39,264 nucleotides of DNA, taken from an uncultured Rhodospirillaceae bacterium. GTDB taxonomy: Bacteria > Pseudomonadota > Alphaproteobacteria > MPNO01 > UBA2964. Below, one piece after another: positions 14,771-38,559 of the stretch. A program made the position numbers and the translations under genes. The notes beneath the pieces are model-generated. The model was not told where the DNA came from, did no database searches, and saw nothing but the letters and a program-made list of their open reading frames with translations. How positions within the stretch are numbered: position 1 is the stretch's first letter; every line of letters starts with the position of its first letter. The stretch spans positions 1 through 39,264 of the forward strand of contig CAJXEC010000010.1 of the NCBI GenBank assembly GCA_913052165.1, given 5' to 3'.

Positions 14771-15901
14771 GTGACAAGATTAGATTGGTATATTTTTCGC
14801 CAAGTGACAGCGGCGACTGTATTTTTGACGGTAACCCTTACAGGTGTCGTTTGGCTTATGCAATCATTGCGTTTCATTGAACTGATTGTAACTCGGGGTT
14901 TGTCGGGACAGGTTTTTCTGTATTTGACATTACTGCTGCTGCCTTCGCTTTTAAGCATCATTTTACCTTTGGGACTCGTAATGGCAGTACTTTTTACATA
15001 CAATAGATTGCTGAATGATAGCGAATTAATTGTTATCCGAGCCGGCGGTTGCAGCCAATACGGTCTCGCGAAGCCGGCAATACTGGTATCATTGTTGGTA
15101 ATGATTATTGGTTACAGTCTATCGCTCTACCTTTTGCCGACCTCTTTTCGAAATTTTAAAGACTTACAATTTCAATTGAGAAATTCAATTCCAGGAGTCC
15201 TTCTCCAAGAGGGGGTTTTTAGCCAAATGGGTGAAGGTATTACGGTCTTTATCAGAAAAAGATCGGACCAAGGAAAACTTAATGGTATTATGATCCACGA
15301 TGCACGGCTCCCGAACTCACCAATAACGATGATGGCCGATGAGGGGGTAATAGCTCCGGGAAAGAATGGCCCCAGGGTGATCATGGTAAAGGGAAACCGT
15401 CAGCAAGTAGACCAGATTTCAGGTCAGTTATCTGTTTTGTATTTTGACCGCTATAGCTTTGAACTTGCGTCTGTAGGGAAAAAAAGCTCACGTAGTTGGA
15501 GAGAGCCCAAAGAACGCTACCTTAACGAATTATTCTTCTCCTCTGCTCAAGAGAAGAAAATCCACCAATACCATAAACTGAGGATGGAGGGTCATTTTAG
15601 ATTATCCATGCCGTTATTATCGGTTGGGCTTGTTTTGGGAGCGCTGGGTATTTTGCTAAGCGGAGACCTCAATAGAAGAGGTCAAGCTCCTCGTATTCTG
15701 TCAGCTGCGGCGCTCAGCGTAGGCATACAGCTCGGACACTTCGCATTACAAAATCTTGGAGAGAAATTGCAATATTTAACTCTTGGGATGTACGTCTTGC
15801 CAATACTTCCCGCATTTTTAGGGATCGTCTTTCTACGCTCTTGGAGACCAATTTTCTTCTGGTCAAAAAAAATAACTAATCTCTCCGTGGGCAAAGACTA
15901 A
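14771..15901 (+). CDS. lptF: LPS export permease LptF
   Basis: One of the two inner-membrane subunits of the LptB2FG ABC transporter that extracts lipopolysaccharide and passes it to the periplasmic bridge. The N terminus (RLDWYIFRQV, then the first helix and SLRFIELIVTRG) is typical of the YjgP/YjgQ family. Three membrane segments precede a periplasmic beta-rich domain (about residues 125-265) and three follow it. Length is 376 aa. The start is a GTG; no ATG, GTG or TTG lies upstream in frame before a stop. It heads a run of six genes for envelope building and is followed 9 nt later by lptG. Confidence 0.95.
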   Translation: MTRLDWYIFRQVTAATVFLTVTLTGVVWLMQSLRFIELIVTRGLSGQVFLYLTLLLLPSLLSIILPLGLVMAVLFTYNRLLNDSELIVIRAGGCSQYGLAKPAILVSLLVMIIGYSLSLYLLPTSFRNFKDLQFQLRNSIPGVLLQEGVFSQMGEGITVFIRKRSDQGKLNGIMIHDARLPNSPITMMADEGVIAPGKNGPRVIMVKGNRQQVDQISGQLSVLYFDRYSFELASVGKKSSRSWREPKERYLNELFFSSAQEKKIHQYHKLRMEGHFRLSMPLLSVGLVLGALGILLSGDLNRRGQAPRILSAAALSVGIQLGHFALQNLGEKLQYLTLGMYVLPILPAFLGIVFLRSWRPIFFWSKKITNLSVGKD

Positions 15902-15910
15902 TATGTTATC

Positions 15911-17005
15911 ATGCGGTTGCATTTAACTTTATCCATCTACATCGGAAAGCTATTTTTGTTCTGGTGGACTTCTGTATTCTTGATTTTATCGCTCATAATT
16001 GCACTATTTGACATGATTGAGCTCCTCAGGATAACCGCAAGTGCGAACGATGTATCCTTTCAAACAATTTTATCCATGGTTTTCTTAAAGTTACCTACCC
16101 TTACCCAAAAGGCTGTGCCGTTTACGATCTTGTTTGGTGCCATGCTTACATTCTGGCATTTAAATAAAAATCAGGAATTTGTTGTCGCGCGTTCCAGTGG
16201 TGTATCAGCCTGGGAATTTCTTTTACCTGCAGTTTTCATTGCGATAGTAATAGGGATAATACAAGTAACCATTTATGGGCCTTTATCTTCAACTTTAATG
16301 ACAAAGTTTGAGCAAATAAAAAACGAAACATTAAAAAGAAAAAGTAGCCTAGCGACGTTGGCTGAAAAGGGAATTTGGTTTCGCCAAGCAACTCCGGACA
16401 CAAATTACATACTGCATGGAGCTCAAATAGAGCCGAGCACCATGGCTCTCAAAAATGCTATAATTTTTCGGTTTAACTCGGACGATAAGTTTGTTCAAAG
16501 GATAGATGCGCCCATAGGTTTTCTTTCTCGCAACAAATGGGTTTTCCCTGAAGCAAGTATCGCTAAGTCCCAGGGCCTTATTGAGAGAATAGAAAATTTT
16601 AAATTACCCACTGAGCTCACAAGAGGAAATGTTCAAGACAGTTTTGCCAAACCCAATACATTTTCTATATGGCAACTACCCAAGTTTATCGACGTTATTG
16701 AAAAAGCCGGGTTTTCAGGTGTCAGGCACAGAATTTATTTTTATTCGCTGCTTATCACTCCGTTCCTATTATCTGCCATGGTGTTATTTGCAGGAGTTTT
16801 TACTCTTCATAAGCAAAGACGGGGGGGCGGGACCATCACAGTAATTTTGGGGGTAGCATTTGGATTTATTCTCTATTTTGGCTCCGATTTGGCTCATGCC
16901 CTGGGTCAAGCAGCCCATATTCCACCAATGATGGCTGCGTTCAGTCCTACAGCTATTGCCCTCTTGGTTTCCATGGCCTTACTGTTTTACAGAGAAGATG
17001 GTTGA
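15911..17005 (+). CDS. lptG: LPS export permease LptG
   Basis: Partner of LptF in the LPS-extracting ABC transporter. The YjgP/YjgQ pattern is repeated: helix near the N terminus (LFLFWWTSVFLILSLIIALFD), FDMIELLR, two more helices with KLPTLTQKAVPF and LNKNQEFVVARSSG, a periplasmic domain of about 135 residues, and three C-terminal helices ending in a short tail. The length is 364 aa. The order lptF-lptG distinguishes the two paralogues. The ATPase LptB is not in the window, as is usual because it lies with lptA/lptC elsewhere. The lptD gene follows after 6 nt. Confidence 0.95.
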   Translation: MRLHLTLSIYIGKLFLFWWTSVFLILSLIIALFDMIELLRITASANDVSFQTILSMVFLKLPTLTQKAVPFTILFGAMLTFWHLNKNQEFVVARSSGVSAWEFLLPAVFIAIVIGIIQVTIYGPLSSTLMTKFEQIKNETLKRKSSLATLAEKGIWFRQATPDTNYILHGAQIEPSTMALKNAIIFRFNSDDKFVQRIDAPIGFLSRNKWVFPEASIAKSQGLIERIENFKLPTELTRGNVQDSFAKPNTFSIWQLPKFIDVIEKAGFSGVRHRIYFYSLLITPFLLSAMVLFAGVFTLHKQRRGGGTITVILGVAFGFILYFGSDLAHALGQAAHIPPMMAAFSPTAIALLVSMALLFYREDG

Positions 17006-30152: not shown

Positions 30153-31097
30153 TTGGTCTCTAAAATAAATAGCGCTCTGCTACTATCTCTCCTAGGAGGC
30201 TTCGCCAGTGTGCCTCTAGGAGTTTTTTTTTTCGGGCCCGCCCCAATTTTGGCGGTGGGCCTCATTTTTGGGACTTCCTATCCGCCAATTTCAGCAGCAC
30301 TCGCCGGACTGGTTGCTCTCGCATGGACGGGTGGATATGGGGCCCTGTCTTATTTGGCTTTGACGGGTATACCGTCGGCGTTAGCGGTACAACTCGCGAT
30401 CTCAAATAATGGTTTATCTGGCAAGATAGACACTAGCCACGCGATTACTGTGGTCTCCATCTTCGGTCTGTTCGTTATATTATTTTTGAGTATTGATTTG
30501 ATTGGATTGGGATCCAGAGCGGAAAACTATGTGGAGAATAGTTTCCAAAATTTTTTCGCCCAATTTCAAAAACAGTTTCAAACAGTTACTGATCCTCAGC
30601 AAGGCGAAACGGTGGCGCTTGCACTCAGTGCTCTTGGAAAATTTGCTGCGAAAATTTCCTTTGGCGCCCTCGGGGCGGTGTCATTTTTGATATTGGCTGT
30701 CAATGTGGCCCTGGTAGAGACGCTGACAAACAAAATCGGTCAATCCAGGTTAATTAGGGCCGATTATTCGTTGACGCAGCCACCTGCATCACTGAGCATC
30801 ATATTTTTTGGAATGATTGGCCTGTCTTTTTTTGCCGGGGATGTAGGTAAATTCGGTCTTAATGCCACAATTTTTCTATCATTTCCCTTTATTCTCATCG
30901 GTTTAGCGGTTATACACACGATCGCGCGCGACCGCAGCAATGTAAAGGTTGCTCTGTGGGTTTTCTACGCACTGGTTTTTGTTTTGGGCGTTGTTTTAGG
31001 GCTATTAGCCCTTATAGCCATTATATTAGCACTAATCGGGGCATGTGAATATTGGGTTGGCGTGCGGAAGCGAATACGGAAATCGTCACCTGATTAA
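30153..31097 (+). CDS. DUF2232 family membrane protein
   Basis: Integral membrane protein of unknown function, 314 aa with about eight hydrophobic helices. The position between rpsR and rplI is the known place of DUF2232 (YybS-like) proteins in alphaproteobacteria, and the sequence agrees in size and hydropathy. No active-site motif is visible. The start is a TTG at 30153, with no other start near the first helix and no clear Shine-Dalgarno. It may be translated by readthrough of ribosomes from rpsR, which ends 9 nt upstream. A role in translation or membrane organisation is speculation. Confidence 0.8.
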   Translation: MVSKINSALLLSLLGGFASVPLGVFFFGPAPILAVGLIFGTSYPPISAALAGLVALAWTGGYGALSYLALTGIPSALAVQLAISNNGLSGKIDTSHAITVVSIFGLFVILFLSIDLIGLGSRAENYVENSFQNFFAQFQKQFQTVTDPQQGETVALALSALGKFAAKISFGALGAVSFLILAVNVALVETLTNKIGQSRLIRADYSLTQPPASLSIIFFGMIGLSFFAGDVGKFGLNATIFLSFPFILIGLAVIHTIARDRSNVKVALWVFYALVFVLGVVLGLLALIAIILALIGACEYWVGVRKRIRKSSPD

Positions 31098-35589: not shown

Positions 35590-35697
35590 TGTTCACCCCT
35601 CACACGATTTCTACAACTTTCATACGGGTTTTAACCTAACCTTGACCCGATGTTTTAGAGGACTAAGTTGTTAGCACAATCGCTCATTGGAAAAAAC

Positions 35698-36927
35698 ATG
35701 ACACAAGATAATCGTATTCTAATTTCTGGAGCAGGCCCGGTCGGCTCAATAACTGGTTACTACCTGGCTAAGCATGGAGTGCCTGTTTCTGTTTTTGATA
35801 CGGCCCCTCTTACACCAAGGGACCACCGAGCCTCCACTGTTCACCCCACAACTCTCCAGATGTTGGCGTCTATAGGCATCACAGAGAAGATAATTCCCCA
35901 AGGCATAATCTCGCCGATATTTCAGTTTCGCGACAGGTTCGATGATCGCGTAGTTGCAGAATTTGATTACGGGATTCTTAGCGACATATTTGACTTCCCT
36001 TTTGCCCTTCAGGTTGAGCAACATAAAGTTATTAATACGACCCATGAAATCGCCAAAGAATATGACACTTTTGAACTTAGGCGCCCTTGCGAAGTCATCG
36101 GTCATGTTCAAGACGAAGATGGCGTCACGTTGAAGGTAAAAAACCAAGAAGGTGAGATAGAGGATCACAGGGGACTTTTTTTACTGGGAACTGACGGCGG
36201 TAGGAGTGTTACCAGAAAAGATGCGGGGATCGATTTTCCCGGTTTTACGTGGCCGGACAGATTTGTGATTGCAACTACGGAGTATGACTTTGGCACACAA
36301 AAAGGCGGAAAACATCATTACCGTAATTATGTGGCGCATCCAGTCCAGTGGTGCGCACTCATAAAAGTCGCCGGAGATGACATGGCTGGTTTATGGCGTA
36401 TTTTGTTGCCTGCTATGGATGATGATCCCTCCGGGCTTGAGATAGGTTCATCTGAATGGGTGCAAAAAAAATTCGTTGAATGCCTTCCGTATGAAGACGA
36501 ATACAAAATCATTGATATAAATCCATATAATGTACATCAAAGAGTCGCCGAAACTTTTCATAAAGGGCGGGTATTACTTGCAGGAGACGCTGCCCATGTT
36601 AACAATCCACTTGGCGGCATGGGTATGAATGGAGGTATTCATGATGGCGTAAATCTCGCCGAGAAGCTCCTCCACATTTGGCGGGAGGACAAAAGTGCCA
36701 ATGAATTATTGGCTCAATATGACCGTCAAAGGCGGCCTACTGCCCTGAAGTACGTGCAAGCGCAATCAATCGCTAACAAGGAATTACTGCAAGAAACAGA
36801 TATGCAACAACGTCGTCAAAGACTTGATGTTCTGGCTGCAACTGCAGAAGACCGGGATAGGTGCAGAGGCTATCTCAAAAAATCGTCTCTCTGGACTATG
36901 TTAGAGGAGGCAAAGAATATTACTTAG
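35698..36927 (+). CDS. FAD-dependent aromatic hydroxylase-type monooxygenase
   Basis: Class A flavoprotein monooxygenase of the PHBH fold, with unknown substrate. The FAD-binding GAGPVG (11-16), the DG motif GTDGGRS (about 164-170) and the GD motif GRVLLAGDAAH (about 290-300) followed by NNPLGGMGMNGGIHDG are complete. The length from the ATG at 35698 is 409 aa; a TTG at 35668 would add ten residues. Motifs resemble phenol- or hydroxyphenylpropionate-type hydroxylases more than UbiH, but the reaction cannot be named. It is divergent from thiO and convergent with a broken MFS exporter, with no catabolic genes nearby. Confidence 0.88.
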   Translation: MTQDNRILISGAGPVGSITGYYLAKHGVPVSVFDTAPLTPRDHRASTVHPTTLQMLASIGITEKIIPQGIISPIFQFRDRFDDRVVAEFDYGILSDIFDFPFALQVEQHKVINTTHEIAKEYDTFELRRPCEVIGHVQDEDGVTLKVKNQEGEIEDHRGLFLLGTDGGRSVTRKDAGIDFPGFTWPDRFVIATTEYDFGTQKGGKHHYRNYVAHPVQWCALIKVAGDDMAGLWRILLPAMDDDPSGLEIGSSEWVQKKFVECLPYEDEYKIIDINPYNVHQRVAETFHKGRVLLAGDAAHVNNPLGGMGMNGGIHDGVNLAEKLLHIWREDKSANELLAQYDRQRRPTALKYVQAQSIANKELLQETDMQQRRQRLDVLAATAEDRDRCRGYLKKSSLWTMLEEAKNIT

Positions 36928-36957: not shown

Positions 36958-38204
36958 TTATGAGTCACTATTTCTCTCCAGCGATTTTTCAAGAAAGCCC
37001 CTGATAGAAAAGATCCAACCACACAAGAGTAAAAGAGCAACACCTCCTATGAAGACCGGCCAGGAAATACCCAGCCACTCGCCCATCACACCCATGCACA
37101 TTGAGCCCATTGCCGTTCCTCCCCTCATCATCAAGCCGTAGAGCGCCATTACGCGTCCTCTTAATTCGTTGCTAATCGAGTTTTGAATCAGTTGTTGTTC
37201 GCCCACCCCAATCATCACCAGGGCCAGCCCCGCAAAGCCAGAGCAACAGACTGCAAAATAAAAATTATCCAATCCGGCAAAAAGAATTAAAGAAGCACCC
37301 ACCAAGGACACCGATATCCCGGTTATCCTCGTCATACCGGTTACCATCCCCCTTCGCGCAAGATAAATACTCCCGAGCATTGCCCGGCATCCCATCGCTG
37401 CATGAAAATATCCAAGCCCCTGGACACCCCAACCAAAAACTCCATCCGCAAAGCCGGGTAACAACTCTGCGAAAGCACGGCCGAAAAATGCGACAACGGC
37501 GAGGATGACAAAAACTTGCCCCATACCAGCTGTCTGGAGGCAGTAGCGCATACCATCCGCTATCTCTCTAGGGATATTCCAAAGTGATTTTTTTTATCTC
37601 GCGGGGGTATAACCAAATCAATAGCATAAAGAGAAATTATAAAAATTAGAAAGCTCAATGCGTTAATAAAGAAAGCTGCCCCCACGCCCCATATCGCAAT
37701 TATAAGTGACGCCAATACTGGCCCGAGAGAGCGCGCTAGATTGAAAGATATTGAATTGATTGCAATTGCAGATGGGAGATCCCTGCGCTCTACTAAGCTT
37801 GGTAACAAGGAAAACCTCATGGGCTGATTGAAAGACATTACAACCCCACGAAAAAGTGCCAAACCGAACAACCACCAAATCGTCGCCATACTTGTGTAGG
37901 CTAAAAAGGTCAAAATCAAAGCCTGCAATAATGCAAGAAGTTGAGTAAATTGAATTCCCTTCAGACGATTGACTCGATCTGCAATAGCCCCCGCAAAGGG
38001 AGCTAAAACCATCGCTGGGACCATATCTGCAAAACCGATAGCCCCCAGCCAAAATGGTGACTCGGTAAGCTCCCATGCGAGCCAACCCATACCAACCCTC
38101 TGAATCCAGGTGCCAAAATGGGAAAGCACATTTCCCGCGGCGTAATAACGATAATTATCGTTGGCAAGCGCGCTTTTTACAGCATCAAAGTCCTTTTTTG
38201 GCAT
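36958..38204 (-). pseudogene. MFS exporter (MFS_3/EntS-like) split by a frameshift
   Basis: Reading the minus strand, 38204-37560 encodes an N-terminal half of 214 aa with MFS helices (RYYAAGNVLSHFGTWIQRVGMGWLAW, FAGAIADRVNRLKG), ending early at a TAG. The C-terminal half lies in another frame, from 37551 to 36958, and joins upstream without a stop through IPREIADGMRYC, a linker wording typical of the family. The two frames meet at an A8 tract (plus-strand T8, 37588-37595); nine As would restore one protein of about 415 aa. This may be a true pseudogene, a homopolymer sequencing error, or a slippage site. The N-terminal ATG follows a 16-nt inverted repeat. Substrate is unknown. Confidence 0.85.
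37588..37595 (-). other. A8 tract at the MFS frameshift
   Basis: Eight consecutive T on the plus strand, A on the coding strand, follow GAT in the N-terminal half frame. One base more would align this frame with the C-terminal half. Slippery A tracts of this length can be misread by RNA polymerase and by sequencers. Confidence 0.8.
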
Positions 38205-38340: not shown

Positions 38341-38559
38341 ATGGCTAAGGAAGAACTTTTAGAGTTTACAGGAATAGTAAAAGAACGCCTTCCAAATGCA
38401 ATGTTCAAAGTAGAGTTGGAAAATGGTCATGAGGTTTTAGCCCATACAGCCGGCAAAATGCGTAAATTTCGAATACGTGTGCTCGAAGGTGACAAAGTGG
38501 ACGTAGAGATGACCCCGTACGATTTGACCAAAGCAAGAATTATTTTTCGCCACAAATAA
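38341..38559 (+). CDS. infA: Translation initiation factor IF-1
   Basis: Small OB-fold factor that binds the ribosomal A site during initiation. At 72 aa it has the conserved [13 protein letters not shown] start, [35 protein letters not shown] and [16 protein letters not shown]. The start ATG is preceded by a weak CAGG. The gene lies between two MFS transporter genes, and the maf gene that I recall beside infA in many alphaproteobacteria is not found in the sequence that follows. Its own promoter probably lies in the gap at 38205-38340, where TTGACG (from 38281) is seen without a good -10. Confidence 0.98.

Follow-up and report, generated by a model that had tools for sequence, protein, structure and literature searches.

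An MFS_3/EntS-like exporter gene split over two reading frames at an A8 run, probably an early pseudogene

The window analyzed here, a stretch of 39,264 nucleotides, is the whole of contig C10 of a draft genome (G000) that measures 2.48 Mb in 141 contigs and is 86.6% complete with 3.4% contamination. Its GC content is 44.7%, and that of 436 kb of the same genome is 45.9%, so the AT-rich genome assumed by the initial annotation did not hold. All but about the first 3.5 kb of the window is collinear with a single contig of G001, the only congener found in our search of the bacterial family. The window yielded no tRNA, and no Rfam family matched it at gathering score. An exporter gene of the major facilitator superfamily (MFS) sits between genes for an FAD-binding monooxygenase and for the initiation factor InfA (Table 1).

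MFS transporters comprise 12 helices. Reading of the open reading frames (ORFs), combined with profile searches, revealed one MFS_3/EntS-like exporter distributed over two minus-strand frames. The N-half stops at a TAG codon (37560–37562), and the C-half frame is closed upstream by a TAA codon (37594–37596) that overlaps the A-run. The frame change must fall between these stops, in the overlap of the two open frames, which starts within a run of exactly eight A. Against PF05977 (gathering cut-off 27, exceeded by both halves), the N-half aligned to profile positions 6–192 (E = 5.4e-35, 121.3 bits) and the C-half to positions 205–386 (E = 2.7e-12, 46.4 bits). TIGR00900 was covered at positions 2–179 by the N-half and 194–363 by the C-half, and the EntS model NF007792 gave the same picture, with the halves on consecutive parts of the model. 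In this consecutive matching, and in the presence of the linker and motifs, the gene resembles MFS_3/EntS-like proton antiporters; it differs from them in its interrupted coding frame and in that neither half attains the curated NCBIfam cut-offs of TIGR00900 and NF007792. The profile matches and the exact run length bear out the initial annotation, which had proposed a single exporter in two minus-strand frames joining at A8; the interval it had assigned to the feature (37560–37620) covers the junction but not the whole gene.

Table 1 Features of the exporter locus in the window and of the interrupted copies in two relatives.
Feature	Position	Strand	Match or remark
FAD-binding_3 monooxygenase, conserved opposite flank	35668..36927	+	PF01494, E=1.1e-50
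Exporter C-half, first ATG at 37551, frame offset by one base	36958..37593	-	PF05977
Exporter N-half, 214-aa ORF that continues for a short tail past the A-run	37560..38204	-	PF05977
Overlap of both open frames, 31 nt	37563..37593	-	Bounded by the flanking stops; contains the frame change
A8 run (T8 on the plus strand), probable frame-change site	37588..37595	-	Absent from the linker of 20 homologs
infA (IF-1), divergent neighbor, conserved flank	38341..38559	+	TIGR00008, E=8.2e-31
G9 run in the G006 ortholog	L005 (G006:C17:137792-141373), reverse complement 2641-2649
G007 ortholog and tandem remnant	L034 / L173, G007:C3 near 373,700-374,400

We aligned both halves with 12 homologs, all of which cross the linker in a single frame (12/12), the G006 copy leaving its frame near the end. 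The linker motif [MLVI]-P-x-E-I is present in 11 of the 12 and reads here as NIPREI in the C-half frame, which puts the frame change on its upstream side. Within the part of the overlap upstream of the motif, A8 is the sole run of six or more bases. If the A-run is counted as shared, 13 residues lie between the last helix of the N-domain and the N of NIPREI, the same number as in the three closest orthologs. Taken together, the consecutive profile regions, the single-frame homologs, the motif in the C-half frame and the equal linker length indicate an ancestral gene for one continuous exporter, predicted at about 420 aa. The N-half shares 61–63% identity with the orthologs of G010, G008 and G006, and the C-half 45–53% with the best copies in G010, G008, G006, G007 and G002. 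The view of a single split gene also stood up in the relatives inspected, none of which encodes two separate conserved proteins at this position; there, both halves run in one frame across the linker.

Of the twelve other genomes of the family, we inspected the locus in six (G001, G002, G006, G007, G008 and G010). The order ThiO, FAD monooxygenase, MFS, tandem MFS, infA, MFS_1 is complete in G010, G006 and G007, the tandem copy of G007 being a remnant that keeps about the last 93 residues. In G008 the locus is partly visible and the contig stops inside the tandem copy; G002 carries a single MFS gene, the likely ortholog, between infA and the monooxygenase gene, with other genes interspersed. 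The gene infA is present at the locus in G001, G002, G006, G007 and G010. G001 keeps both flanks, and the roughly 280 nt between its monooxygenase gene and infA (L078, G001:C5, reverse complement 15854–16130) contain no match to either exporter half at E ≤ 1e-3, a gap that, by sequence comparison, marks the loss of the exporter in the congener. Since the exporter occupies this place in the relatives and the flanks are kept in G001, it is ancestral at the monooxygenase–infA locus and absent in the nearest relative.

Among the six genomes that carry the exporter at the locus, a single frame spans both MFS_3 domains in G002, G008 and G010, and the gene is interrupted in G000, G006 and G007. As assembled, the G006 ortholog stays in frame up to a G9 run some 30 residues short of its end, its C-terminus being readable in another frame, and the G007 ortholog stays in frame for about 120 residues, until a G5 run or a point right beside it. 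In the stretches taken from five relatives (46 blocks of best hits, with a reference ORF minimum of 120 aa, two plus-strand antisense-frame rows left out), the exporter genes of G006 and G007 were the only splits; these stretches had been chosen for carrying the MFS gene, and the neighboring genes served as control. Both breaks may themselves be assembly errors. Elsewhere in G007, further MFS copies (G007:C1:663027-663607 and G007:C3:467816-468376) appear split or interrupted, and this genome may therefore hold many frame errors or pseudogenes.

We consider it probable that a recent slippage indel has struck a dispensable exporter, leaving an early pseudogene. A single-base indel arising by replication slippage in the A-run would have put the second half of the exporter out of frame, and the gene would now yield an N-half fragment of 214 aa in place of a full transporter, its function presumably abolished. 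We propose that this bacterial family can do without the exporter and that the indel was tolerated for this reason; the species would then be at an early stage of losing an exporter that its congener G001 already lacks. Ordinary recent decay (or a consensus error) is most likely, and not a new mode of expression, because in some relatives, too, this gene seems to be broken or lost. In the assembly, the frame is disrupted relative to intact orthologs, as in a pseudogene; that the indel exists in the cells, beyond the consensus, we infer. The C-half frame contains no further stop codon, which points to a recent break, if it is real, and agrees with the initial annotation, where the open halves had been taken to point to a recent event or an error.

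The main rival to this account, possible but in our judgment unlikely, is an error of consensus or assembly at the homopolymer, the gene being intact in the cells. Such an error would fit a single lesion at a homopolymer between halves that are otherwise open, in a draft genome as fragmented, incomplete and partly contaminated as this one, and homology-validated singleton frameshifts are expected, in the available part of PMC3711429, to be sequencing errors and not real indels. We checked frame integrity by aligning 274 non-redundant genes (86,771 aa, from 436 kb of G000, the exporter itself being outside the set) to 2.0 Mb of G001, with a split test that compares all pairs of matches and not the best ones only. 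The test recovered the exporter split with nine queries (four control proteins from relatives and five from G001) and found no other credible split among the 274 genes aligned to G001. Three pairs with 26–47% identity (L056, L060 and L066) were dismissed by eye as shadow frames or modular proteins, and a plus-strand row from query CTRL_L006_3 at the junction as an antisense frame. In 28 of the 274 genes a single stretch covered less than 80% of the reference, 18 of these lying at stretch ends and 10 elsewhere. The same alignments contain 40 A or T runs of at least eight bases read in frame, 28 of A (A8, 19; A9, 7; A10, 2) and 12 of T (T8, 8; T9, 3; T10, 1). Since no other credible split was found and these 40 runs stay in frame, homopolymer error is not general in G000; one isolated error could still have occurred. 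The intact runs, A9, A10 and T10 among them, thus weigh against an error at A8, as does the position of the gene at a locus from which G001 has lost it. Many of the 133 candidate pairs returned by an ab initio hunt for frameshifts by codon usage could plausibly be operon overlaps, and this approach was set aside in favor of homology.

A composite account, in which the family locus is phase-variable or tuned by slippage, with scattered indels, the gene switched off in three of the six carriers as sampled and the N-half perhaps kept separately, seems improbable to us, and its components are weighed below. The first of these is that a full exporter is made by transcriptional slippage or by −1 ribosomal frameshifting at A8, as the initial annotation had suggested with regard to slippage. 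The direction is right for backward slippage, the C-half is free of further stops, and transcriptional insertions, as described in the available text of PMC5574713, are mostly single bases in A or T runs and become far more frequent as the run lengthens; in the same text, a genome-wide RNA study, no case of a restored frame is reported. The run is, however, absent from all 20 homologs, whose longest linker A-run is one to five bases, so that A8 is seen in G000 only. These 20 had been picked as continuous ORFs of at least 300 aa, and their continuity is therefore by selection; the G007 copy, outside this set, likewise reads through the linker. The same frame organization in at least two non-identical homologs, which the accessible portion of PMC1088944 uses as a criterion, was found in none of the 20. 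The length of the run argues in the same direction: the host RNA polymerase of Escherichia coli slips to no detectable extent on A-runs of fewer than eight bases (PMC6260861, part of the text), which places A8 at the lower limit, and the run falls short of the nine or so bases that serve as a length criterion for slippage-expressed genes, nine also being the length at which many genomes show evident selection against slippery runs (PMC1088944, as far as its available part goes).

Two further tests addressed the expression of the gene at the junction. Relative to synonymous shuffles, A and T runs in the genes of G000 were counted at 19 against 17.2 (A8), 7 against 5.0 (A9) and 9 against 11.7 (T8), so runs of at least eight are not clearly under-represented in this genome. 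The 93 nt from the run onward folded no better than shuffled sequences (z = −0.54, with 60 of 200 shuffles folding at least as well; one stretch was folded, for structures free of pseudoknots), and no convincing signal of ribosomal frameshifting was found at the junction. In the AT-rich symbionts Blochmannia and Buchnera, frameshifted genes with A-runs are reported to be still functional, rescued by transcriptional slippage, in the available part of PMC3017870. The exporter resembles these genes, and those of the works cited there, in its single A-run indel and its otherwise open frame; it differs from them in a GC content of about 45%, a run of only eight bases that is not shared by homologs, and the absence of the gene in the congener. 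Low-level slippage at A8 is possible, but the results lend no support to a dependence of the exporter on it, and with the run in none of 20 homologs, a genome that is not AT-rich and a run at the slippage limit, we regard expression by recoding as quite improbable.

Phase variation, in which homopolymer length would toggle the gene within a population in the manner of a contingency locus, would gather under one cause the frame changes that three species show at homopolymers or directly beside them (A8 in G000, G9 in G006 and G5 in G007). These lie, however, at three differing places and involve differing bases, and A8 and G9 are missing from the intact orthologs of G010 and G008. Runs such as A8 and G5 are also short for phase variation, which we hold to be very unlikely here.

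We compared the constraint on the two halves using 45 homologs. Of the sites conserved in at least 90% of them, 29 lie in the N-half, none of them changed, and 32 in the C-half, 7 of them changed (Fisher p = 0.011); of the invariant sites, none of 15 is changed in the N-half, against 2 of 9 in the C-half (p = 0.13). A leave-one-out analysis at 95% conservation found the C-half changed at 3 of 19 sites, and three of the 45 homologs showed as many changes or more. Measured from the node that joins this gene to its closest orthologs, the N-half branch is 0.41 long, against 0.34–0.44 in those orthologs, and the C-half branch 0.94, against 0.37–0.52. A column bootstrap gave a C-minus-N excess of 7.3 points (confidence interval 2.7–12.2), and single relative-rate tests assigned more own changes to the C-half than to the ortholog in 27 of 27 comparisons (p from 0.005 to 0.54), comparisons that share sequences and to which we give no weight. 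When the C-minus-N contrast was calibrated over the other homologs (44 of 46 sequences scored, two being dropped for too few outgroups), the exporter ranked third of 44, three of the 43 other rows mirroring the same comparison. The ratio of C-half to N-half terminal branches was 2.16, against 2.12–2.13 in the three closest orthologs, and would by itself indicate no difference; the terminal branches of these sisters are very short (0.02–0.09 for the N-half). The faster change of the C-half, at first a strong sign of relaxed constraint, lies within the range of other homologs once calibrated and may or may not reflect such relaxation, and the N-half is not evolving faster.

The N-half thus lacks the decay that a dead gene would be expected to show in both halves and, together with the C-half frame that is still free of further stops, this counts against a pseudogene. 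The unchanged conserved sites of the N-half would also suit its maintenance as a separate protein, but the N/C contrast is nothing unusual after calibration and no inspected relative is split here (three are continuous, G006 loses its last 30 residues and G007 breaks elsewhere), which makes this explanation barely credible. Among the publications listed for half-size MFS proteins, as judged by titles and abstract openings, we found nothing on point.

For the early pseudogene that we favor, a close counterpart is the singleton class of GeneTack, pseudogenes or errors (PMC3711429, in its available part), with which the exporter shares a homology-validated frame change at an unconserved site; it differs from that class in that relatives show loss or frame changes at the locus. 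If real, the break would offer a snapshot of step-wise exporter loss at a conserved locus, where a tandem pair, a single broken copy and nothing at all are represented. The understanding of MFS transporters and of recoding would be unchanged, and annotation would list two half-transporters at the exporter locus. Elsewhere in the window, an A9 run (1346–1354) lies inside the ORF of an SLT-domain protein and a T10 run (30223–30232) inside that of a DUF2232 membrane protein, so long runs do occur in frame in G000.
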